Positions 4,865 to 22,960 of a stretch of DNA of 22,960 nucleotides are shown in pieces. The stretch comes from a virus. Each line of letters begins with the position of its first letter. Position 1 is the stretch's first letter. The notes under the pieces were generated by a model. The model saw only the letters and a program-made list of their open reading frames with translations, had not been told where the DNA came from and did not search any database. The stretch covers positions 1-22,960 of the IMG/VR virus record IMGVR_UViG_3300003324_000143; one strand, written 5' to 3'. The position numbers and the translations under genes were made by a program.

Positions 4865-5137
4865 GTGGCGCGTCAGTCACTGTACGAATACAAACGGGAT
4901 GGAATTCTTGAAGCCATCCAGTCCTTGACCAACGCCAAGGGCCGCGCACCCTCGTTGCGCGAAATTGCCAGCGTTGCTGACGTGTCCGTCGCCACTCTGC
5001 ACTCCTACCTCCGTCGTATGCAGGAGGAAGGTGTGGTCACATGGGAGAGCAAGCATCACCGTTCGCTGAAGGTGGTTGGCTCCAGCCCGAATGGGTCAGG
5101 GCTGGGAATGTCGCCTCCTTCTCCTTCGTCGCCGTAG
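4865..5137 (+). CDS. LexA-type winged helix-turn-helix protein without a peptidase domain
   Basis: This is a 90-aa protein starting at GTG 4865, with GAGGGAG about eight bases upstream. Residues 9-70 (YKRDGILEAIQSLTNAKGRA, then SLREIASVADVSVATLHSYL, RRMQEEGVV) match the layout of the LexA N-terminal DNA-binding domain, including the recognition helix after the VADVS turn and the wing. The LexA self-cleavage domain is absent. The last 20 residues are Ser/Pro-rich and overlap the 5' end of the RusA gene in another frame. It is probably a phage regulator or a helix-turn-helix competitor of host LexA; its target is unknown. Some 97 bases overlap the next gene, so one of the two boundaries may be imprecise. 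Confidence 0.8.
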   Translation: MARQSLYEYKRDGILEAIQSLTNAKGRAPSLREIASVADVSVATLHSYLRRMQEEGVVTWESKHHRSLKVVGSSPNGSGLGMSPPSPSSP

Positions 5138-5559
5138 GCAAGCCGGTGCCTAAGGCGCGTCCTCGTGTGGTTCGTAACGCCAAAACTGGCTTCACGCAGA
5201 CGTTCACGCCTGACAAGACTGTCAACTGGGAGCAGGCTGTCGCGTGGCAAGCCAAGCAGGCTTTGGCCCACGTTGCAGTCAACTTCCCGGGTGACATGGA
5301 CCTATTTCCCTGCACGGGGCGAGTGGCTGCCACGCTGCGATTCAACGTGGTCCGACCGCAGTCATTGCCAAAGAAAGTGCTCTACCCGGTGCGTGGAGCA
5401 GATGTCGACAATCTGGCTAAGTCTGTCCTGGACGCGCTACAGAACATGCAGGTCATTGGCGACGACAAGACGGTCACGGACCTCCAGGTCTGCAAGCGAT
5501 TTGAAGAGCCTGGACATCCCGAAGGTGTCGAGATCGACTTGACGATGTGGTTTGGCTAG
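5041..5559 (+). CDS. rusA: RusA-family Holliday junction endonuclease
   Basis: This is a 172-aa protein in the RusA superfamily, which resolves four-way DNA junctions. Visible hallmarks are GKPVPKARPR (33-42) and the active-site block with D121, D123, N124, K127 and D131 (DVDNLAKSVLDAL), followed by GDD (140-142), in the expected order and spacing. The family's usual length is about 120-140 aa, so about 25 residues at the N-terminus are extra. The start is therefore uncertain, but no later in-frame start fits before the conserved beta strand VASFSFVAVG. ATG 5041 has AAGG nine bases upstream inside the previous gene. It likely clears branched replication DNA before packaging. Confidence 0.88.
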   Translation: MGEQASPFAEGGWLQPEWVRAGNVASFSFVAVGKPVPKARPRVVRNAKTGFTQTFTPDKTVNWEQAVAWQAKQALAHVAVNFPGDMDLFPCTGRVAATLRFNVVRPQSLPKKVLYPVRGADVDNLAKSVLDALQNMQVIGDDKTVTDLQVCKRFEEPGHPEGVEIDLTMWFG

Positions 5560-5560
5560 T

Positions 5561-5606
5561 CGTGACGGCTTGGGAGGGACTGGCCGGAGTGGGATGGGCT
5601 TGTCGT
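5561..5606 (+). repeat. Single-unit copy of the G-phased pentamer pattern
   Basis: The 84-base gap after the RusA gene is G-rich and splits into blocks starting with G (TGACG, GCTTG, GGAGG, GACTG), ending in GCTT-GTCGT at 5598-5606. It is followed by the same AGCCGTATC element that closes the two large arrays at 20291 and 22270. It is therefore a minimal version of the patterned DNA at 17.5-22.3 kb, here inside a rightward operon and on the sense strand. Confidence 0.6.
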
Positions 5607-5625
5607 AGCCGTATCAAGAACCGGC
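5607..5625 (+). promoter_or_regulatory. Array-end element AGCCGTATC with short hairpin
   Basis: AGCCGTATC (5607-5615) is identical to the elements at 20291-20299 and 22270-22278. GCCG (5608-5611) can pair with CGGC (5622-5625). It stands about 20 bases upstream of the start at 5644. The function is unknown; possibilities are a processing, folding or termination signal of the repeat element. Confidence 0.55.
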
Positions 5626-5643
5626 GTTGACCAGGAGTATTCC

Positions 5644-5817
5644 ATGAACGGAACCTACGCACTCGCTGACGAAGACATGCTCTGCTTGGAGTGCGACCGG
5701 CCCATTATGACCGGCACGCCGTACGCAGAGCGTCTCGACGGCTTTGCGGGTGACACACCGGTTGTCGAAATCATCTGCGTCTACTGTGCCTACGACTCGA
5801 AGGAGAAAGTGTCATGA
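5644..5817 (+). CDS. Small zinc-ribbon-like protein, 57 aa
   Basis: This short gene starts at ATG 5644 with CAGGAG about eight bases upstream. The product has CLEC near residues 14-17 and CVYC near 45-48, a two-knuckle arrangement typical of a zinc ribbon, with an acidic N-terminus (NGTYALADEDM). Its stop overlaps the next start (ATGA at 5814-5817), so it is translationally coupled to the C2H2 protein downstream. The role is unknown. A structural zinc site and protein or nucleic-acid contact are the likely themes. Confidence 0.75.
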   Translation: MNGTYALADEDMLCLECDRPIMTGTPYAERLDGFAGDTPVVEIICVYCAYDSKEKVS

Positions 5818-8789: not shown

Positions 8790-10493
8790 ATGGCTGTCAA
8801 GGAAGCACTAACCGACGCTGAGAAAGCGTTGGTTGCGATTCTGTCGGACCCCAGCGGTATCGACATCGCAGAGTTCATCTGGAAAGACCCCGACGCCAAG
8901 AATGCCAAGGGTCGTCGTGACGGTTTGTTCCGTTGTTGGTCCTACCAATATCCGTGGTACCGCAACGACACGAAGAAGCAGATCGACCAGTGTGGTCGTG
9001 CCATCGGCAAGTCGGTCGGCATCCAGATGCGTGCTTTTGCCTTCCCGTTCGTCAATCCAGGTCAGGAAATGCTTATCACCGCACCGGAGATGATTCACCT
9101 TGATCCGGTGACCAAGAACATTGAAGACCGACTGCTGGCTTCCCGCATCTCCACCGAGATGCTCAACAAGCGCAACAACGCCTCCGGCATTACTCACCGT
9201 CCGTTCGAGGCAAAGTTCGTCAACGGCGCGAAGATTATTGGCCGTATCCCGCAGAAGGATGGCAAGGGTGTCAAAGGTATGCACCCTCGCATGCTGGAAA
9301 TGGACGAGGCGCAGGACTACCCGGCAGCAGGTTGGGTGGAACTGACCGAAACTCTGCGGTATGGCGATGAAACTTCTCGGTGGCGTGCACATGGCGTGTC
9401 CCGAGGTGTGCGTGACCACTACTACAAGTTGACACAATCCGACGACTGGCACACTCACCGCTATACGGCCATGCATCGTCCGGACTGGACGCCTGCTGAG
9501 CGGTTGGCCAAGGCCGAGTTCTACGGCTCTCGGGATCACCCGGACTACCGACGCAACATCCTGGGCCTACACGGTGACGCGCTGTCGGCGCTGTTCGTGC
9601 TTCACCGACTCATGGCGTGTGTCGATTCTCAGCCAGAGAGCGACTACAACACCAACGAGTATTTGCACGTCCGTCTGAATGACGAGTTCGTCCGGGACAT
9701 GGGCATGCCCATCGAGTCGCACATCGACATCCCGGGCAGCCACAAGACGTACAAGAAGTTCTGGATGGGCATGGACGTTGGTCTCACCAATCACCCATCC
9801 GAGATCTTGGTCTTCGCCGAAGAGGCAGTACACAGCAAGCAGGAGCCGATGAAAATTCGGCTCAAGTGTCTTGCTCGCATTCACCTGGAGCGCATCAGTG
9901 CTCCTGAGCAAATCAAGGTCATGGAGTTCTTGGTCGAGCATTACCGACCCGAAGGCTTCGGCATGGACCGCACCGGTCTTGGTCTGCCGATCTACCAGTA
10001 CGCCATCGACCCACAGAAGGCATCGCACGAACTGAACAAAGCGATCCGTGGCTATAACTTCTCGGAGAAGATCCCGGTGGCCTTCGAGGCACCCGATGAG
10101 GATCTGAACGAGTGGGAACAGATGGAAGACGATCCGATGGACCGCGCCGTCTTGGGCAATGTCCTGGAGTACTCGTCGGACACACTGCGGCTTCTTGTCG
10201 ACCAGGGTCGGCTGCGACTGCCGTGGGACATTGACATGCTCAAGGAGTTCCAGGGCCAGGCGTACTACACCGCTCGGTCCTCCACGAACCCCTACGGCAA
10301 GAAGGAGTTCAACAAGGGCAAGTTCCACGCCCTCGACGCAGCGCGCATGGCTGCCCTGGCCTATGTCCAGGCTCCCATCGAGGAGTTGCTTCGCAAGAAG
10401 CAGGACCAGGATGCTGTTCCGCTGCTGTGGATGGACGATCCGTACACGGCTGACTTGGGCTTCGACGGCTTTGGCGACGCCATCGGCTTCTGA
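8790..10493 (+). CDS. terL: Terminase large subunit (packaging ATPase-nuclease)
   Basis: This is a 567-aa protein, full length for the family. The ATPase half shows a Walker A-type loop CGRAIGKS (residues 68-75) and Walker B plus catalytic Glu in MLEMDEAQ (168-175). The C-terminal RNase H-like nuclease half shows WMGMDVGLTN (D329), GFGMDRTG (D393) and FHALDAARMA (D516), the three acidic residues in order. It uses ATP to translocate DNA into the prohead and cuts the concatemer. The start ATG 8790 has no clear Shine-Dalgarno, and the upstream gap is 37 bases. The portal follows one gene later, the normal order. Confidence 0.93.
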   Translation: MAVKEALTDAEKALVAILSDPSGIDIAEFIWKDPDAKNAKGRRDGLFRCWSYQYPWYRNDTKKQIDQCGRAIGKSVGIQMRAFAFPFVNPGQEMLITAPEMIHLDPVTKNIEDRLLASRISTEMLNKRNNASGITHRPFEAKFVNGAKIIGRIPQKDGKGVKGMHPRMLEMDEAQDYPAAGWVELTETLRYGDETSRWRAHGVSRGVRDHYYKLTQSDDWHTHRYTAMHRPDWTPAERLAKAEFYGSRDHPDYRRNILGLHGDALSALFVLHRLMACVDSQPESDYNTNEYLHVRLNDEFVRDMGMPIESHIDIPGSHKTYKKFWMGMDVGLTNHPSEILVFAEEAVHSKQEPMKIRLKCLARIHLERISAPEQIKVMEFLVEHYRPEGFGMDRTGLGLPIYQYAIDPQKASHELNKAIRGYNFSEKIPVAFEAPDEDLNEWEQMEDDPMDRAVLGNVLEYSSDTLRLLVDQGRLRLPWDIDMLKEFQGQAYYTARSSTNPYGKKEFNKGKFHALDAARMAALAYVQAPIEELLRKKQDQDAVPLLWMDDPYTADLGFDGFGDAIGF

Positions 10494-10575: not shown

Positions 10576-10968
10576 ATGCCAGTGCTCAAGTTGGAGTCCG
10601 CGCAGGCTAACCCCGACCAAAACGGAGTTAGCCCGCAGCCCATGGACCAACTTCGACTTACGGTCGAGGTTCCCGGTCTCGGGTCGATCATCAGTGTTCG
10701 GAAAGAGATCGACGACGTTCTGGCTGACATGCAGGACTTCCACCGTGCTGAGCCAGACATGGTGATGTCGGCGGTGAGTGCTCACGGCGCTCGTCTCACC
10801 GAAATCATTGTTCGTATTCAGCGCATCGAGGTTGTCCGGCGCGAGTGGAAGCCGGTGCGTGAAGAGGCAGACAAGGTGCTGGGCGAACTCAAGTCGCAGT
10901 TCCAGATCGCCAGCCGTCAGATTGCCATCCGTCAGATGGACTGGGACATGGTGCGAGGTCAGACGTGA
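10576..10968 (+). CDS. Helical protein between terminase and portal, 130 aa
   Basis: The start is ATG 10576 with GAAGGT about ten bases upstream. The N-terminal 25 residues are polar and Pro-containing. After a short beta segment (LRLTVEVPGLGSI), the rest is highly helical and charged (ARLTEIIVRIQRIEVVRREW, then EEADKVLGELKSQFQIASRQ) with heptad-like hydrophobics, so a coiled coil is likely. Its stop overlaps the portal start (GTGA), indicating coupled translation and a likely head-assembly role, for example a portal partner or packaging accessory. I do not recognise a named family. Confidence 0.78.
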   Translation: MPVLKLESAQANPDQNGVSPQPMDQLRLTVEVPGLGSIISVRKEIDDVLADMQDFHRAEPDMVMSAVSAHGARLTEIIVRIQRIEVVRREWKPVREEADKVLGELKSQFQIASRQIAIRQMDWDMVRGQT

Positions 10969-12716
10969 CGATCCAGCGGTTCTTCAACGACTACCCGACA
11001 GACATCGGTGCTGACACCGATGGGGTGGACAACGCCTCTCCTGGCACAATTTCTTACGTCAATGAGGCCGGTGTACCGGAAGAAATCGCGCAACAGGCCC
11101 TTCGGAAAACAGATATTGCGTCAGCCATCGACCAATGGTCACGCAATCTGAGTGGTCAGTCGGCACAGGGATCGCTGTTCTTCCGCAACCGGTACAACCT
11201 CACCACCAACATCTACGACCAGATGATGCAGTGCTCCGACGCTGTGGAGTGGGACGAGATCCTCTCGGCTACCTGCGACGCCACTGAGGGCCTGGCTTTC
11301 CAGAAGATGTCCTTCGAGTGCGTCGATCCCGACCAGGAAGACGTGTGGAACCAGGTGGCGGCTGACCTGGATATGGACAGCCGTCTACGTGAGATCTGGC
11401 GTGAGTTGTTCAAGGTCAGCCAGGTCTACATCGCCATCGACTGGATCGAGAAGGTCTACAAGGTCCGGACCAAGGCGTTCCCGGACATGCACGCGGATGA
11501 CACCGAGAACGTCACCGTGCCGCACCCTGGCGCTGAAGACCTGCACCCGACTGGTATCCCGAACCCGGGACCGAAGAAGCGTGCTCGCCGCAAGCAGTTC
11601 GCGCTGACTGTGCCTGGACGGCTGTCCATTCTCGACCCGACCAAGGTGCTGCCGGTGGGGCAGTTGATGTTCGGCCAGGAACGCTTCGCCTACATTGCTG
11701 AGCAGCAAGAGCATGAGGCGTTCATCGAGGTCTTCCAGGGCCGCAGTCAGGACCCGTTGGTGCTGAAGATGTTCGACGGACCGTACACGCCGACACCAAC
11801 GGAACTCGCTCAGTTGTCCGAGGCTCACCGTGGTCCGACGAACAAGGTCTTCCTCTGGATGTTCAAGAAGGAAGCCGTCTTCCGTCACACTCTGTCACGC
11901 GCTCAGTACGAACGGTTCGCAGCCATCCGACTGAAGTCCTTGCTTCCAGTCCTGGACATGAAGAGCCATCTGCGGGCGTCTGACCGTGCAGCACTCATCG
12001 GCTCGACCAACTTCATCGTTGTGCTCAAGCGTGGTTCGGACAAGTACCCAGCGCGTCCGGCTGAGATCGAGCAACTCCGTGAGCAGGCTCGTGTGGTCGC
12101 ACGGATGCCAATCCTTGTGGGCGACCACCGCCTTGAGGTCGAGATCATCACGCCGAAGACCGACTTCGTACTGGATGAGACGCGGTACGACACGCTCGAC
12201 CAGCGCATCATCATGCGTGCGCTCCAGACGTTCACATTGACCAGTCGTGGTAACCAGGGCCAGGCAGAGACGTTCCATAACGATGTCATCGCTCGTGGCA
12301 TCGAGGCGCGTCGCCATGAGGTGTCTCGCACCATCGAAGAGCACCTCCTCAAGGCCACGGTGGACCGCAACCCCACCGCACTGACGGACACGCCGAGCCT
12401 GTCGTTCCACCCGAAGCGCGTCGTGATCACTACGAACACCGACGTGATCAACGGTGTCATCAAGTTGCGCGCCTCAGGCGACATCTCCCGGGAAACCATG
12501 CTGGAAGAGTTCAACTACGACCAGGAGATCGAGTACATCCGCCGCAAGCGGGAGAAGGCAGTCGACCCGACGTTCAAGTCTTCGGTGCCGTTCTCCTCGC
12601 CCGACTCCAACCCGTTCACCACCGGTGGCCAGGGTGGCCGTCCGGCTGGTGGCGGTGGGGCCGATGCGCTCAACCGGGACCCGTCAGGTGCAACTCCACC
12701 GTCGCCGAAGGGCTAA
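10965..12716 (+). CDS. Portal protein
   Basis: This is a 583-aa protein starting at GTG 10965 with a four-base overlap with the previous gene. Size, position directly after TerL and before the protease/scaffold/capsid genes, and content all fit a portal, the dodecameric DNA channel at one capsid vertex. Visible features are an N-terminal helical part (IAQQALRKTDIASAIDQWSR), a mixed alpha/beta core (VYIAIDWIEKVYKVRTKAFP), and a long helical crown-like region with RREQ/RRKRE segments. It ends in a Gly/Pro-rich disordered tail (TTGGQGGRPAGGGGADALNR). I did not identify family-specific residues, so the call rests mostly on synteny and length. Confidence 0.82.
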   Translation: MTIQRFFNDYPTDIGADTDGVDNASPGTISYVNEAGVPEEIAQQALRKTDIASAIDQWSRNLSGQSAQGSLFFRNRYNLTTNIYDQMMQCSDAVEWDEILSATCDATEGLAFQKMSFECVDPDQEDVWNQVAADLDMDSRLREIWRELFKVSQVYIAIDWIEKVYKVRTKAFPDMHADDTENVTVPHPGAEDLHPTGIPNPGPKKRARRKQFALTVPGRLSILDPTKVLPVGQLMFGQERFAYIAEQQEHEAFIEVFQGRSQDPLVLKMFDGPYTPTPTELAQLSEAHRGPTNKVFLWMFKKEAVFRHTLSRAQYERFAAIRLKSLLPVLDMKSHLRASDRAALIGSTNFIVVLKRGSDKYPARPAEIEQLREQARVVARMPILVGDHRLEVEIITPKTDFVLDETRYDTLDQRIIMRALQTFTLTSRGNQGQAETFHNDVIARGIEARRHEVSRTIEEHLLKATVDRNPTALTDTPSLSFHPKRVVITTNTDVINGVIKLRASGDISRETMLEEFNYDQEIEYIRRKREKAVDPTFKSSVPFSSPDSNPFTTGGQGGRPAGGGGADALNRDPSGATPPSPKG

Positions 12717-16498: not shown

Positions 16499-16515
16499 GA
16501 GGGGGTGGATCACTA

Positions 16516-17454
16516 ATGTCGGACATCACCAAGAAGTTGGTTGACGCTTTCGGGCGTTCCGCTGAGGACAAGCGAGTCAAGCGGGAACTGACCGAGCGCG
16601 CCAACGATGAGGCACGCCAGTACTGGGGCGACCCTAAGTGGCGTGCAGACTTCGCTGCCGAGATGACGGAATCCATCCTTCTCGGCTTCGAGTACGAGAC
16701 GCTTGTTGACCGTTGGATCGAGACTGAGACAACGGACTTCAACGGACGCATCTTCGTCCGTGAGGCAGGCGGCCTCAAGGCGTTCTACATGGCACGTGGT
16801 GGATACATCGAGGCGAGCCAACTCGTCAGCGAGGTCTCCGAGATTCCGCGTGACATGGTTGGTGTGCACGTCTGGGAGTTCGAAGACAAGTTCACCAACA
16901 ACTTCGCGGAGAGCGCGCAGACTCTGCGTGACCTCAGCACCCAGCGCATGGACGCGGAGATCAACCGCCGCATCCACACGGTCCTGTCTCAGGCCATCCC
17001 GGTTGGTAGCCCGTACTACGTGGCAACTCCGGGTCTGAGCAAGGCTGCTCTGGACAACGCCATCCGCAATGTCCAGGACTCCACTCGTACCGGCGAGGTT
17101 GTGATCGTTGGTCGTCCTTCGATGGTCGACCAGATCGTTGACTTCGAGGGTTACGGCATGGAGACCCTGGAAGAGATCCGCCAGAAGGGTGTCCTCGGCA
17201 CCTACCGTGGTTGCACAATCGTGCGCCTGAAGAATTTCAAGGACGAAGACGGTACTCCTTACCTTCCGGGTAACGAGATGTGGGTTATGGCCCGCGACAC
17301 CGGCAAGTTCGCATTCTTCGGCGGGCTCAAGAGTAAAGAATTCGAGGATTTGGACAACTGGTACTGGCACTACATCGCGCGTCGTGACACGGGTCTTCTC
17401 GTGCACCACCCGGAGCGTGCCCGTCTGCTGGTGGACAGCAACCAGCCTGCCTAG
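16516..17454 (+). CDS. Major capsid protein (HK97 fold)
   Basis: This is a 312-aa protein. I choose ATG 16516 (MSDITKKLVDAFGRSAEDKR), with a G-rich GGGGGTGG site about 8-12 bases upstream. An in-frame ATG at 16435 lies inside the preceding gene. Features fit an HK97-type shell protein: a charged helical N-arm with a long spine-like helix (RINRRIHTVLSQA region), a beta-rich domain (GEVVIVGRPSMVDQIVDFEG, TYRGCTIVRLKNF), and a P-domain/A-domain ending DTGLLVHHPERARLLVDSNQ. It is the last gene of the head operon, directly followed by a strong terminator, which is expected for the most abundant product. Confidence 0.85.
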   Translation: MSDITKKLVDAFGRSAEDKRVKRELTERANDEARQYWGDPKWRADFAAEMTESILLGFEYETLVDRWIETETTDFNGRIFVREAGGLKAFYMARGGYIEASQLVSEVSEIPRDMVGVHVWEFEDKFTNNFAESAQTLRDLSTQRMDAEINRRIHTVLSQAIPVGSPYYVATPGLSKAALDNAIRNVQDSTRTGEVVIVGRPSMVDQIVDFEGYGMETLEEIRQKGVLGTYRGCTIVRLKNFKDEDGTPYLPGNEMWVMARDTGKFAFFGGLKSKEFEDLDNWYWHYIARRDTGLLVHHPERARLLVDSNQPA

Positions 17455-17503: not shown

Positions 17504-17531
17504 GCGTGACGTGTTCCGGAACAGCGTGACG
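17504..17531 (+). promoter_or_regulatory. 12-bp palindrome flanked by direct repeats at the array's left edge
   Basis: TGTTCCGGAACA (17512-17523) is a perfect palindrome. It is bracketed by two copies of GCGTGACG (17504-17511 and 17524-17531). It lies between the terminator and the first GTCGT header (17548). It may be an operator, a nuclease or recombinase site, or part of the array. No function is shown. Confidence 0.45.
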
Positions 17532-19473
17532 CGACTCGACAGGGCGTGTCGTGCAGGCTAGGCCAGGATTGGATCGGCAGGCTGTCGGTTCGGAAAGACT
17601 CCACTTGTCGTGACGGCATGGCGTGGCCGGGGTTAACAAGCAAAAGACTTGGCAAGTCGTTTTGGCTGGAACTGAAACAGACGGGTGTCAGAACTAGGCA
17701 AGTCGTAATGGCGAGGACAGCAACAAGGCCGGGTCAGGCTAGTCGTCCAGGTCCGGCAAGTTGGGTGTGGGCAAGAGTGGGTGTGTCGTCGTGGCATGAA
17801 CTGATGTGGCAAGACAAGAAATAGGCGAGTCATAAAGGCATGGCAGGTTCCCGGCGAGGTGGAGGCGCGGCGCGTCGTTCCGATCAGGGATGAGCGGTCT
17901 TGACTTGGCACGTCGAGTAGAGAAGTCGTGGCCAGACACGGGTCGTCGTCCTGGGCGGGTATGGAGTGTCGGTGCGGGATGGCCGGTACGCGACTTGAGC
18001 AGATGTGGTTAGTCGGCGTTTAGGCATGACGAGACATGGGCTGCAATGTCGGTCCGGGTAGATGTCGGGTCGGCACGAACTGAGTCGGGAACGGACTAGT
18101 CGTCGTGGCCAGGCGCGGTGTTGACATGCAGCGGACCTGGCTAGTCGTCATGGTTAGACGTGAATTTGGTTGGGCTAGTCGTCAGATGGCTGGGGGCGTC
18201 TTGTCTGGACTAGGCGCGGCAAGTCGGTTCGATTCGGAAAGGACCGGGTTGTCGTTCGGCTCGGAAGGGTCTGTCACGGTGAGGCAAGTCGGCAGAGGAT
18301 GGACGGGAGTTGTCGAGGATCGTCGTATGGGCCGGTAAAGGCAGGTCCGGACCCGGCTCGACTAGTCGCCGTGATGAGGCAAGTGGTGGGTTGGGACGGA
18401 TCGTCGGTGCGACGAGGGCGAGTGTGGGGCTGTGGCTGCTCAGGCTAGTCGGGCGGGCGCGAGTAGTTCTTGTGTCGGGATGACTCGAACAGAAAAGTCG
18501 TGCTGGCTCGTTATGGCGTGACGTGGACCGATCAAGACTTGTCGGGCGCTGTCGTCCAGGGTTGGCTTGGTCTCGTTTATGTAGCCGACTTGTCGTGGGT
18601 GGGCACGTCGGTGAGGCGGGACGGGATGTTGACTGGATGGCGGCAAGACAAGGCCCGTCGAGTAGACATGACGAGAGTTGGCGAGATAAGTCGTGCTGAC
18701 GAGGCTAGTTGTGTCATGGGTGGACGAGATAAGAAAAGTCGCCATGGGGTGACGAGACTTGGGCATGCCGAGGCAAGTCGAACCGGTTCGGGTGGACTCG
18801 AACAGACAAAGGTCCGGACAGACCTGGCATGTCGGTCAGTTGTGTCCAGGGAAGGCATGGCAAGTCGGTCCGGGCGGGCTGGTAAAGATCCAGTGATGAC
18901 TTGACTTGTCGCCAGTTGAGAAACGTCGGGGCAAGAAAAGTCGCTCCGGCCTGAGTAGGGCTGGCAGGTCGAGTAGGCGTGCGCGGTCTCGACACGGAGT
19001 GACGCGGCTTGACCCGGCTAGTCGCTGTGCGATGAGAAGGCTCGAAAAGACTGGTCGTTCTGGACAGGGACGATTTGGACGCGTATTTGTTCTCGTTGCG
19101 GCGCGGCACGACTTGTCGTGGTGGCGGGACAAGACCCGGCGTGTAAACGGCATGGCTAGTCGGCTTGACCTTGGTTAGACCTGGCCAGGCGTAGGCAGGC
19201 ACGTCGTTGTGACCTGGGCTGATGTGAGCACGCAGTAGACAAGGCAAGTCGGTGGGACATGGATGGCAGTGACACGACTCGTTCTGGCTCGTCGGTTGGG
19301 CACGTAGAGCAGGGTGCAAGACAAGGCATGTCGCGTGGATAGGGCATGACTGGTCGAGGCTGGAATAGTCGCACGGTTGTAGGCCGGTAATGGCGCGAAA
19401 AGGCTCGTCGCAATGTCGGGGTTGGACAAGACCTGGATAGTCGCATGGAAATGGCGAGCACAGACAAGAACAT

Positions 19474-19511
19474 GGCGTGTCATGTAGGCAAGGCGTGTCA
19501 TGTAGGCAAGG
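19474..19511 (+). repeat. Tandem 18-bp duplication inside the array
   Basis: The 20-mer beginning GGCGTGTCATGTAGG occurs at 19474-19493 and again at 19492-19511, giving an exact 18-bp tandem copy (8 + 2 blocks of 5). It keeps the header grammar, so it looks like a recent whole-unit duplication. Confidence 0.8.
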
Positions 19512-19826
19512 AGTCGAGACGACCGGGCCGGTTCCGACGAGGCGCGACTTGTCCAGGGCATGTCACGCTGGCTTGTCCTGTGATGGCAAGAAAAGTCGTT
19601 GCGGCTAGACGAGTTTCGATCAGACCAGGCGAGTTGCTGACGCGGCGAGAGTTGTCGTGTGGACATGGGGTGGCTCGTCACGGCACGAATAGACAAGGAA
19701 AAGTCGTACAGGGAAGTGCCGGAGCGGACCCGGGTTGTCGTCACGGCCAGGACAGAAGTAGCAGGGGTTGGGTGTGTCGGAACCGAAGCGGGGCGACTTA
19801 GACACGCGCTTGTCCAGGCTCGGCTG

Positions 19827-19860
19827 GTCATGAGGGTTAGAGAGTCATGAGGGTTAGAGA
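19827..19860 (+). repeat. Tandem 17-bp duplication inside the array
   Basis: GTCATGAGGGTTAGAGA occurs at 19827-19843 and again, exactly, at 19844-19860. It is a second recent unit duplication with a GTCAT header. Confidence 0.85.
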
Positions 19861-20142
19861 CAGGTATGGATGGTCGTCTGGATAGTGGTTGGGTCAGTCG
19901 TGGCACGTCGGACTGTCGGGGCGGGGCATAGGTCCGTTGCGTCCAGGCACGTCGAACTGGCTCGAACTGATCCGTGCGCGGCAAGAAGCGACGATGGGTT
20001 GAACTGTCATGTCGGTGCGGTCAGGGGAAGAATCGAAAAGACTGGACGCGACAAGGAGTAGTCACAGTGGCAAGACAGGCACGGAGTCGGAAAGTCGTTG
20101 GGGCAGGGCTTGTGCGCGTCCGGAGTTGAGAAGGCCAGTCGT

Positions 20143-20169
20143 CAGGAGTTGGGTCGCCAGGAGTTGGGT
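20143..20169 (+). repeat. 15-bp spaced repeat inside the array
   Basis: CAGGAGTTGGGT occurs at 20143-20154 and 20158-20169, a 15-base period (three blocks of five). It is consistent with growth of the array by slippage in whole blocks. Confidence 0.7.
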
Positions 20170-20290
20170 TGGGTCGTCGTTGTGAGTGGGCTGGTTCTCG
20201 ACGGGGGTGGGCGAGTCAGCGGGGTCGGCCAGTCGTCCTGGAGTGATGAGGTATGGCGAGGATCGCAAGGAAACGGTAAGTCGTTTGCCT

Positions 20291-20307
20291 AGCCGTATCT
20301 ATACGGC
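20291..20307 (+). promoter_or_regulatory. Array-end element AGCCGTATC with perfect 7-bp hairpin
   Basis: AGCCGTATC (20291-20299) is shared with 5607 and 22270. Here GCCGTAT (20292-20298) and ATACGGC (20301-20307) form a perfect stem with a CT centre. It overlaps the stop codon of the leftward gene at 20299-20661, so it could also act at that gene's 3' end. Confidence 0.65.
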
Positions 20308-20661
20308 GTCGGGTTCTTCTTCGATTACGTTTTCGGTTGGTACGTTGCCACCCCAGTGGTTGATGATGCCGAGTGGTCGTTCTTTTTCCGCTGGGCACGT
20401 CATTTTTGTTGGGTCGTTGCCTCCTGTGAAATTGATGCCCCATGCTTCGCGTAGTTCTTGCCAGTCGGGATGGGCGTCACAATATTGGCAATGTCCTGGG
20501 GCGTGAAGAACTCGTTGGTCACAGTGGGGAAACTGTGAAATTGTCGGTTGCGGAACTCCGAAACCCATCGCGTTGATGTCAGCCTGCGCTTTTTGGCCAC
20601 GTTTCACGAAGTCCTTGATCGTGTTGAGTTGCCATGACTGTGCACGTCCGTGTTCCTCCAT
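20299..20661 (-). CDS. Leftward Cys-containing hypothetical protein embedded between two arrays
   Basis: This 120-aa protein is read on the minus strand. It begins MEEHGRAQSWQLNTIKDFVK with a helical, basic N-terminus. The middle has FPHCDQRVLHAPGHCQYCDA, giving three Cys and several His that could bind zinc. It then runs DWQELREAWGINFTGGNDPT, MTCPAE, and a C-terminal tail ENVIEEEPDAV that echoes the VIEEE tails of the products at 436-948 and 973-1161. The composition is ordinary protein, unlike the surrounding array, so it is a real gene. The array starts within ten bases of its ATG, and no Shine-Dalgarno is visible, so its promoter must lie within patterned DNA. The function is unknown. Confidence 0.82.
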   Translation of the reverse strand: MEEHGRAQSWQLNTIKDFVKRGQKAQADINAMGFGVPQPTISQFPHCDQRVLHAPGHCQYCDAHPDWQELREAWGINFTGGNDPTKMTCPAEKERPLGIINHWGGNVPTENVIEEEPDAV

Positions 20662-22269
20662 GGGGTCAGGTTAGTCGGACTGGCAGGACGAGGCTAGGAC
20701 CGGTGGGGAAGGACATGAGGAGTCGCGGAGGCATGCGGCTGACTAGGCCGGGAAGTGGTAGGGCTGGTCGGGCGGTCTAGAGCCGGTTGGACATGCGACA
20801 GGCAAGTCGAAAAGAAGAGGCGCGTGCCGACAAGAATTGGCAAGTCGTCAGGAAGAGGGTGGAAACGGTCGAGGTGTGAATGGACATGTCGGATCGAGCA
20901 AGGCATGACCAGGAGTGCTCGCGGCGAGACGCTGGCAAGTCGTTCCAGGAAAGGTGCGGGTCGACATGCAGTGGTGTGGGACGTCGGTCGGAGTAGAAGA
21001 GTGAAGACTCGAATCGGCACGAGTAGTCGGCTTGGTGAAGGACAGGTCTGGTGTGAAATTGGACAGTCGGTTTGACTTGCCGAGCAATGAAAAGTCGTGA
21101 TGGCCGGTCCGGTTCGTGACAAGAAGAGGCGTGTCGGACTGACGTGGCGTGTACGGACACGATGGGACCTGTTTCGACACGCTCAAGAACAGTGCATGAT
21201 AAGGCCAGTCGTTGAGGCTTGAGCCGGATGGACCTGAATTGTTCTGGTGTGGCGTGGGTCGGGATGTCGTTCAGGCGAGGTGCGTGTGGGCGTGGGTGGG
21301 TCGGACAGGTGCTCGGGTGGCTAAGTCGTTCCGGCCAGGCGAGATCGTGACAAGGACTTGACCCGACAAGCGACCGGGCGCGGCTGGGGGCGTCGTATTG
21401 GCGAGAGCGGACAGGGCCAGTACGGGCACGACATGACGTGGCGCGACTCGGGGCCATGACCAGGCGTGTCGTTCGGGGCTGACCAGACAGGGATTGTTCC
21501 GACAAGCGTCTGAAACGGAGTGTCGCATCGGTTGGTGCTGGTGAGGATTGCAGCGGAACGTCGGATCGGATTCGGACGGGGTTGACACGAGGATGCGACG
21601 CGAGCCAGGCGAGAACTGTCGGGTTCAGTCGTTGAGGAACGGGCGGGCCGGGTTGGTGCGAGTAACGGACTGTCGTACAGGCGAGTCCTGACCTGGATGC
21701 GTACGCGTCGGGGCTTGTCCCGGCTGGGCCAGTCGCATGGGGTTGAACCGGCGCGTGATGACTTGATGGGGTGGGCCAGAAATAGTCAGAGCGGTGAGGA
21801 AAGTACGGCTAAGACGTGTCGCGTAGGCGAGTCATGACCGGTGCAAGGTAAAGCCGGACGGGGCGTGTCGAACCGGGTGGACTCGGCGGGGGCAGTACCG
21901 CGATGGGCCAGGAAAGTCGGACGGACCCGATCCGCGCCGGACAAGAGTTGACTAGTCGGTGGGGAGGGATTTGCACCGTGTGAGGGCGGGGCCGACATGT
22001 CGAACGGTCGAGTGATGGCGTAGCAAGTGAGGGCACGTCGTGTTGACGTGAGACGCCGAGAAATGACGTGTTCAAGGCGGGACAAGGTGAAGTCGCAGTG
22101 ACTTGACGTGTAGAACAAGGCGCGACCCGCACGGGCTTGGCATGTCGTACCGACTGGATTAGACACGCGCTCGACGTGAGTAGATAAGTCGTGATGGACG
22201 GTTCTGGACCAGCAAGAAACGGACGGTACGTCGCGTAGGTCGAGAGCAGTCGATGAGTTGACTTGTCGT
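20662..22269 (+). repeat. Non-coding G-phased pentamer array, segment 2
   Basis: About 1.6 kb with the same + strand grammar as segment 1, with roughly 40 GTCG headers by hand count. The clearest stretch is 21392-21449: header GTCGT, three bases (ATT), then ten consecutive 5-nt blocks that all start with G (GGCGA, GAGCG, GACAG, GGCCA and six more). The orientation is the same as segment 1 although the gene between them is leftward. It ends in GACTT-GTCGT and the shared AGCCGTATC element at 22270. No gene is supported on either strand. Confidence 0.85.
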
Positions 22270-22289
22270 AGCCGTATCTCATTCACGGC
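22270..22289 (+). promoter_or_regulatory. Array-end element AGCCGTATC with 5-bp hairpin
   Basis: GTCGTAGCCGTATC at 22265-22278 is identical over 14 bases to 5602-5615. GCCGT (22271-22275) pairs with ACGGC (22285-22289). It is the third instance of the array-end element, with a different stem length at each site. Confidence 0.65.
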
Positions 22290-22308
22290 GTTCGGTGAAA
22301 GACTGCCT

Positions 22309-22356: not shown

Positions 22357-22960
22357 TTAGTTCTTGGTCTTGGCTGCTTTCACGGGCTCGACCTTCTCGA
22401 ATGCAACGAGGTCGAACTGGCCGTCAGAGCGGCCACGGTCAGCACCGAGACCGATGTCCTCGCCACGTTCGAGGATGCGTGCCCATGCTGCGAGTGGAAG
22501 GAAATCGTCGTGAACTTTCAGCGTGAAGGTGAGCGTCGGTTCCTTGATGACCTCGACACGGTTCAACGCCGATTTTGGCCCTTGTGGCGTCATCACGTGC
22601 TTGATTCGTTCTTCTACCCAAGCCTGGCCAACACCTGGAGTTGACGAAACCTCGTCCGACTTGACGCCGGTGCCGATGAAGACTTCCTGGACGAACGCAC
22701 GCTCGGCCAGGGTTGCCATCAGGCCCTTGCGGAAACCCTTGGCGACGTCGGTCTTACCGGGCCACTCGGTGCCCGGGTAGGCGCTGTTGGCCCATTCCTT
22801 CAGGCCAGCCTTGATGCAGCGACCTTCGACCATGAGTTCACCGGTCTGCGGGTCACGCTTGAAGCCGTTGACGGAAACCGTCTCCTGCTTCTCCATGAGT
22901 GCGTCGAGTGCCTCGTCGGTGGTCTTGAACTCCGACTGGCCGCGCTCAGCGAGCGTCTGC
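22357..22960 (-). CDS. Hypothetical protein, partial at the window edge
   Basis: This reads on the minus strand. The frame stays open from the ATG at 22896 back to the window end, and that upstream part (QTLAERGQSEFKTTDEALDA) looks like protein. I therefore call the gene partial, with at least 200 aa, its start lying outside. After the ATG position it reads GFKRDPQTGELMVEGRCIKA, then ANSAYPGTEWPGKTDVAKGF, then a beta-type segment (TLTFTLKVHDDFLPLAAWAR), ending in a Lys/Ala tail. There are no zinc or membrane features. I do not recognise the family. Transcription converges on the array and a hairpin terminator follows the stop. Confidence 0.8.
   Translation of the reverse strand, partial: QTLAERGQSEFKTTDEALDALMEKQETVSVNGFKRDPQTGELMVEGRCIKAGLKEWANSAYPGTEWPGKTDVAKGFRKGLMATLAERAFVQEVFIGTGVKSDEVSSTPGVGQAWVEERIKHVMTPQGPKSALNRVEVIKEPTLTFTLKVHDDFLPLAAWARILERGEDIGLGADRGRSDGQFDLVAFEKVEPVKAAKTKN

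Follow-up and report, generated by a model that had tools for sequence, protein, structure and literature searches.

Pentanucleotide arrays with a shared 3' tail in a soil phage: probable guide arrays of a VIPR system

Why should three loci of one phage genome, a short one behind rusA and two long arrays, end in the same nine nucleotides? The question was raised by an earlier note on this DNA and is followed up here in the window, by which we mean the whole stretch of 22,960 nucleotides that was analysed. It belongs to a virus record of 24,199 bp (IMGVR_UViG_3300003324_000143) from a tailed soil phage, in which the following genes serve for orientation:

5041-5559: rusA
8790-10493: terminase large subunit
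10965-12716: portal, assigned from its position and from relatives
16513-17454: major capsid, assigned from its position and from relatives

Exactly three copies of the 9-mer AGCCGTATC are present in the window, always on the + strand (5607-5615, 20291-20299 and 22270-22278) and always as the 3' end of an array, while dinucleotide shuffles contained a mean of 0.04 copies and never three. Besides these three copies, the earlier note had pointed to a 14-base identity between the small copy and the end of the second array. Both observations hold, as GTCGTAGCCGTATC is present without mismatch at 5602-5615 and 22265-22278, i.e. in the miniature array and array 2 only, and no further copy was found in the window with two mismatches allowed. 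As a diagnostic marker on its own, GTCGTAGCCGTATC was rejected: more than 100 IMG/VR contigs contain it, which is about the chance level for a collection of such size, and these matches are mostly chance occurrences without arrays. Specificity resides in the combination of tail and array and not in the 14-mer alone.

The 9-mer is the 5' half of a conserved tail containing a hairpin, which takes the following form at the three loci:

20290-20310, + strand: tail of array 1, TAGCCGTATCTATACGGCGTC, with a 6-bp hairpin GCCGTA/TACGGC
22265-22293, + strand: tail of array 2, GTCG-TAGCCGTATC-TCATTC-ACGGCGTTC, with a 5-bp hairpin GCCGT/ACGGC
5606-5615, + strand: TAGCCGTATC in the tail of the miniature array, with a 4-bp inner stem GCCG/CGGC formed by 5608-5611 and 5622-5625

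Stems of 4, 7 and 5 bp had been proposed; the stems of 4 and 5 bp were recovered, and that of array 1 has to be shortened to 6 bp, as a seventh pair would leave a loop of 2 nt. In relatives, the tail follows the consensus GGCTAGCCG[TC]ATC-N-[AG]CGGCGTCGC, with TAGCCGYATC..RCGGC across 15 array ends. In the inner stem of these 15 ends, 94.7% of the cells are paired, and the last stem pair (pair 5) is changed on both sides, from U-A to C-G, in four sequences (GCCGT/ACGGC to GCCGC/GCGGC). Support for the outer tail helix did not go beyond that obtained with shuffles. The proposal that the three loci share an element with a definite 3' boundary, which may act as RNA, and are not drifting low-complexity DNA, is supported in two ways: within the window, the 9-mer is confined to array ends, and its stem is conserved in relatives with changes on both sides.

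The two long arrays and the reading frame between them are located as follows:

17520-20289, + strand: array 1, about 66 GTC-punctuated putative guide units of the form (G-R-C-N-N)n, supported by autocorrelation, HMM and parse
20662-22268, + strand: array 2, about 36 GTC-punctuated putative guide units, supported in the same way
20299-20661, − strand: Cys/His-rich ORF of 120 amino acids without family, its 3' end overlapping the tail of array 1

The arrays are built of 5-nt words, G-R-C-N-N, which are interrupted every ~40 nt by the 3-nt word GTC. An explicit parse divides arrays 1 and 2 into about 100 units and gives a single one for the miniature array; a unit starts with GTC, continues with 7.9 words on average and is most commonly 44 nt long. 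In array 1, the autocorrelation of G reaches z values of 9.0, 4.9 and 3.9 at lags 5, 10 and 15; it recurs in array 2 and is absent at these lags in a coding control. Alignment on [AT]GTCG places G at −14, −9, −4, +1, +4, +9, +14 and +19. A six-state HMM trained on the arrays returned G (0.98), A/G/T, C (0.51), N and N together with the frequent 3-nt word; for array 1, the gain was 0.21 bit/nt. Positions 4-5 of the words are near uniform, while positions 1-3 (G 0.98, purine, C) are conserved, a contrast that speaks against decayed slippage repeats and in favour of sequence-specific reading. We found no tandem array of identical units of the kind formed by CRISPR direct repeats, the separators being the 3-nt word GTC. 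A coding origin of the arrays was set aside because their period is 5 and not 3. As a separate observation, the position of the Cys/His-rich ORF, precisely between the two arrays, gives the impression of an insertion into a single array. In addition, a perfect palindrome, TGTTCCGGAACA, is present at 17512-17523 as the sole copy in the window and lies in front of array 1, after the hairpin that follows the capsid gene; it is possibly an operator or promoter element for array 1. A search of the window against Rfam returned no family and no hammerhead ribozyme.

The gap downstream of rusA had been described as holding about one unit of the pattern, and one complete GTC-bounded unit was indeed found there:

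5554-5631, + strand: putative miniature vrRNA, consisting of GGCTA-GTC, eight pentamers, GTC and the tail

In this parse, GTC at 5559-5561 is followed by eight pentamers (5562-5601), a second GTC (5602-5604) and the tail, giving the guide code AC TT AG CT CG TG TG TT; the start of the guide falls on the stop codon of rusA. A sister phage is represented by L172, an 8.9-kb fragment with a terminase that is 93% identical. There, the next gene follows directly after rusA and the insert is absent; relative to L172, the window carries the miniature vrRNA and an ORF of 57 amino acids (5644-5817) inserted behind rusA. The miniature array therefore looks like a single-guide cassette, apparently aimed at the homologous locus of the sister phage, ~500 bp upstream of its own site.

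Words with three conserved and two free positions, followed by a conserved 3' tail, are known from VIPR (Viral Interference Programmable Repeat), in which a RAMP protein, Vipr, acts together with vrRNAs composed of GGY/NN words (PMC13142463, 2026 preprint). These vrRNAs bind DNA through their NN pairs with one base skipped between them, the published guides comprise 9-16 words with one tail each, and the system has been proposed as an ancestor of CRISPR (PMC13142463). As a control, we read the SUSP1 phage locus and recovered the published type of tract beside its vipr gene. In the record analysed here, two genes lie beyond array 2:

22357-22960 and past the window end, − strand: Vipr-like RAMP gene, C-terminal 200 amino acids, convergent with array 2
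23144-23554 of the record: coiled-coil ORF of 136 amino acids upstream of vipr, with a counterpart in relatives

The Vipr-like protein ends in a RAMP-like glycine loop, GEDIGLGADRGRSDGQF, with the pattern GxxIGxGxDRxRxDG. An 'nn' assembly gap at record positions 22961-22962 interrupts the gene, the N-terminus of which is readable only from a separate piece of the record past the window end; the apparent frame break at this point is probably an assembly artefact. Relatives with 44-67% identity were found in prophages of Nonomuraea, Sphaerisporangium, Actinomadura, Thermoactinospora and Spongiactinospora as well as in metagenomic phages, and more distant relatives exist. One of these distant relatives (34% identity; L259, 5990-7800, − strand) was seen together with a long array of the type found in the window. 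AF2 models reached a pLDDT of 78-79. A complete relative, modelled with a pLDDT of 78, had 115 matches at E ≤ 0.001 in the PDB, the 50 listed being without exception CRISPR effectors of the Csm3/Cas7 type (E 7e-7; Z 11.4, 159 residues, 4.0 Å). The 200-residue fragment of the window itself also matched Csm3/Cas7 first, though more weakly (E 1.6e-4; Z 8.2), and the top matches from Foldseek and VIA were all Csm3/Cas7. Hence, the protein of the window is predicted to adopt the Csm3/Cas7 RAMP fold. Pfam and PHROGs recognised neither the RAMP protein nor its upstream neighbour, a search of PDB sequences returned no relative, and hhalign detected no sequence similarity between the RAMP protein and SUSP1 Vipr; RAMPs share little sequence similarity according to the authors of the VIPR study (PMC13142463). 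The coiled-coil ORF is a candidate accessory gene (vap), with no match to the named vap families.

Array, tail and Vipr-like gene also occur together in relatives. In eight of the nine relatives found first, a GTC-punctuated array with the tail lies directly downstream of vipr on the opposite strand. All three genomes with Vipr contain the tail motif at the Vipr locus, plus one other site each that is probably due to chance, and the 15 records of phage relatives without a detected Vipr, many of which are fragments, are also without the tail motif.

Potential targets were searched with 90 guides of the window in 1.3 Mb of sequence from phages related through their capsid or terminase, comparing readings with skips of 0-3 bases plus reversed controls. 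E-values were corrected for the sub-windows per guide, and the multiplicity of 90 guides was covered by shuffles. With a skip of one base, 3 of the 90 guides gave matches at E < 0.005, whereas the other seven readings gave none in 630 (no corrected E < 0.01) and 14 word-order shuffles (1,260 guides) yielded none either. The targets of these three guides, followed by that of a fourth, shorter guide (12 nt), are:

Miniature guide: 16/16 in L172, at the end of the wHTH (regulator) gene where rusA begins, target site ACCTTGAGGCTCCGATGATGCTT
17610-17655, + strand: guide with the code AC AT GT CG TT AA AA TT AA; capsid gene, 17/18 in L122 and in the phage itself
21269-21324, + strand: guide with the code GC TG GT TG CG AG TC TG AA (9 of 11 words); 18/18 to the FHDLRHTQA catalytic motif in the tyrosine integrase gene of L143
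17551-17580, + strand: guide with the code CA TA CA TT TC AG; antisense strand of the capsid gene, 12/12 at 27 relative loci, some of which overlap on the same contig

All 4 targets have the skip on codon position 3. Weaker skip-1 matches (E 0.03-0.5) are mostly off codon position 3 and were treated as chance. The matches of the miniature guide and of the guide at 17610 start and stop at GTC words, suggesting that the GTC-bounded segment is the functional guide. In arrays of relatives, the skip-1 reading gave matches at E < 0.01 for 3 of 138 guides and for none in the controls, with the codon pattern not present in every case. For most of the ~90 usable guides, no target was present among the related phages searched (1.3 Mb); one 22-nt guide code of the window had no exact match in IMG/VR, and one 24-nt guide from Actinomadura had none within two mismatches in 200 genomes of its family. 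On a side note, the integrase-like ORF of L143 (5832-7049, − strand) is located between the portal and capsid genes, which is an unusual place.

The phage itself carries near-targets of three guides:

5051-5073, − strand: wHTH/rusA overlap, near-target of the miniature guide, 14/16; peptide KHHRSLKV, with Ser TCG here and AGC in L172
17215-17240, + strand: capsid gene, 17/18; peptide TIVRLKNFK, with Leu CTG where the guide specifies TTN
17350-17366, − strand: capsid gene, 11/12; peptide LDNWYW, with Leu TTG here and CTN at the 27 relative loci

At all three own sites the peptide is the same and a single dinucleotide is mismatched, each time through a synonymous six-fold codon of Leu or Ser; the integrase target of L143 has no counterpart in the phage. 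A code that ignores the wobble base sees synonymous changes only in Leu, Ser and Arg codons, and the pattern at the own sites is thus the expected signature of self-sparing. With three cases, the recoding is suggestive of self-sparing and not a proof.

We hypothesise that a phage-encoded VIPR system with a RAMP partner has its vrRNA arrays at the three loci, finds skip-1 targets in related phages and spares its own genome; we regard this explanation as very likely. Alternatively, in such a VIPR system, guides that match own genes (capsid, wHTH/rusA) almost perfectly might serve to regulate these genes and not to spare them. The own capsid sites at 17215 and 17350, with only one mismatch each, and the location of all three near-targets within own homologous genes would fit such a role. 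This is nevertheless unlikely given that, in the two cases where another target is clear, the relatives match better (16/16 in L172 versus 14/16; 12/12 at the 27 relative loci versus 11/12), that the mismatch always falls in a synonymous six-fold codon, as avoidance predicts, and that the integrase target has no own counterpart.

TRAP reads triplets spaced by two free nucleotides. The arrays share this spacing and have a hairpin at their end, so that the tail could be conceived as an intrinsic terminator or processing hairpin and the array as a decoy RNA that titrates a host TRAP-like protein with a 5-nt step. The triplet is a different one, though, no TRAP gene was seen and a RAMP gene adjoins the array instead; furthermore, no U-run follows the hairpins and gapped, on-codon-frame matches to genes of sister phages are not predicted, which makes a decoy very improbable. 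Least probable of all is a degenerate pentanucleotide microsatellite, i.e. slippage-born drifting DNA with the shared 9-mer marking a duplication: the strong G bias, the lack of long ORFs and the lack of a match among INPHARED phages would agree with it, but slippage would leave a consensus at positions 4-5, and tail covariation, linkage to the RAMP gene and the target signal contradict it.

Under the VIPR explanation, the grammar, the tail, the predicted fold, the linkage, the target matches and the codon pattern are what was computed, and from these we infer transcription, RNP formation, repression and selection for self-sparing. The + strand of the arrays would be transcribed, with AGCCGTATC as the start of the tail hairpin that closes each array transcript at its 3' end. 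Vipr from the convergent gene would bind each run of ~8 G-R-C-N-N words, presumably with one subunit per word, and each GTC word would form the boundary between two successive guides. Between the NN pairs, one base would be skipped in reading (NNxNNx...), the skip falling on the wobble base of codons. The bound target would be double-stranded DNA of competing, related phages, in which transcription of the target gene would be blocked. The phage itself would be spared since its own copy differs by a synonymous swap of a six-fold codon (Leu CTN/TTR, Ser TCN/AGY) at one dinucleotide.

The proposed system has much in common with SUSP1-type (type II) VIPR: both are phage-encoded with a single small protein of RAMP fold (here predicted), both have noncoding arrays whose 5-nt words keep positions 1-3 conserved and NN hypervariable, as well as a conserved 3' tail hairpin, and in both the targets lie in competing phages (probably competing in the present case) and follow the 1-nt skip rule only, with the skip on codon position 3. 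In contrast, the words are G-R-C here and GGY there, guides average ~8 words (7.9) compared to 9-16, ~100 guides stand under three tails instead of having individual ones, 3-nt GTC separators and the convergence of vipr and array are found here, and the Vipr proteins have no detectable sequence similarity. Class 1 CRISPR-Cas (type III-A Csm3/Cas7 RAMP) shares the predicted fold, the C-terminal glycine loop and the arrangement of many short guides in an array, but here the array lacks identical direct repeats and a neighbouring cas operon, and the guide code is gapped. The GTC-punctuated architecture might correspond to the 'staggered arrays' of the VIPR preprint (PMC13142463). More tentatively, and with somewhat less than even confidence, we propose a GTC-punctuated VIPR variant with ~100 guides under shared tails, cassettes that can be inserted as single guides, and discrimination between self and sister phages by recoding of Leu and Ser. 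If true, this would be a large natural example of VIPR in actinobacterial phages, including the target of a single guide that was inserted recently, and a concrete solution to the problem of self-targeting in the fight against near-identical relatives; its GTC-punctuated array would illustrate the number of guides that fit under a single tail.

Arrays of related appearance were also seen elsewhere. In the related phage L191 (526-1555, + strand), a 1-kb GGCNN array lies directly downstream of rusA with 4-nt GGCA words in place of GTC; the contig has no A3-type Vipr and the array possibly belongs to another VIPR type. In L141 (~11100-11700), another relative with no match to A3-type Vipr, a tRNA-Met gene located downstream of the capsid gene is surrounded by GGYNN arrays in both orientations. 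Finally, the closely related arrays downstream of vipr in L223 and L245 have some guide units that are identical and others that have been gained by insertion, lost or altered, suggesting that guides turn over unit by unit.
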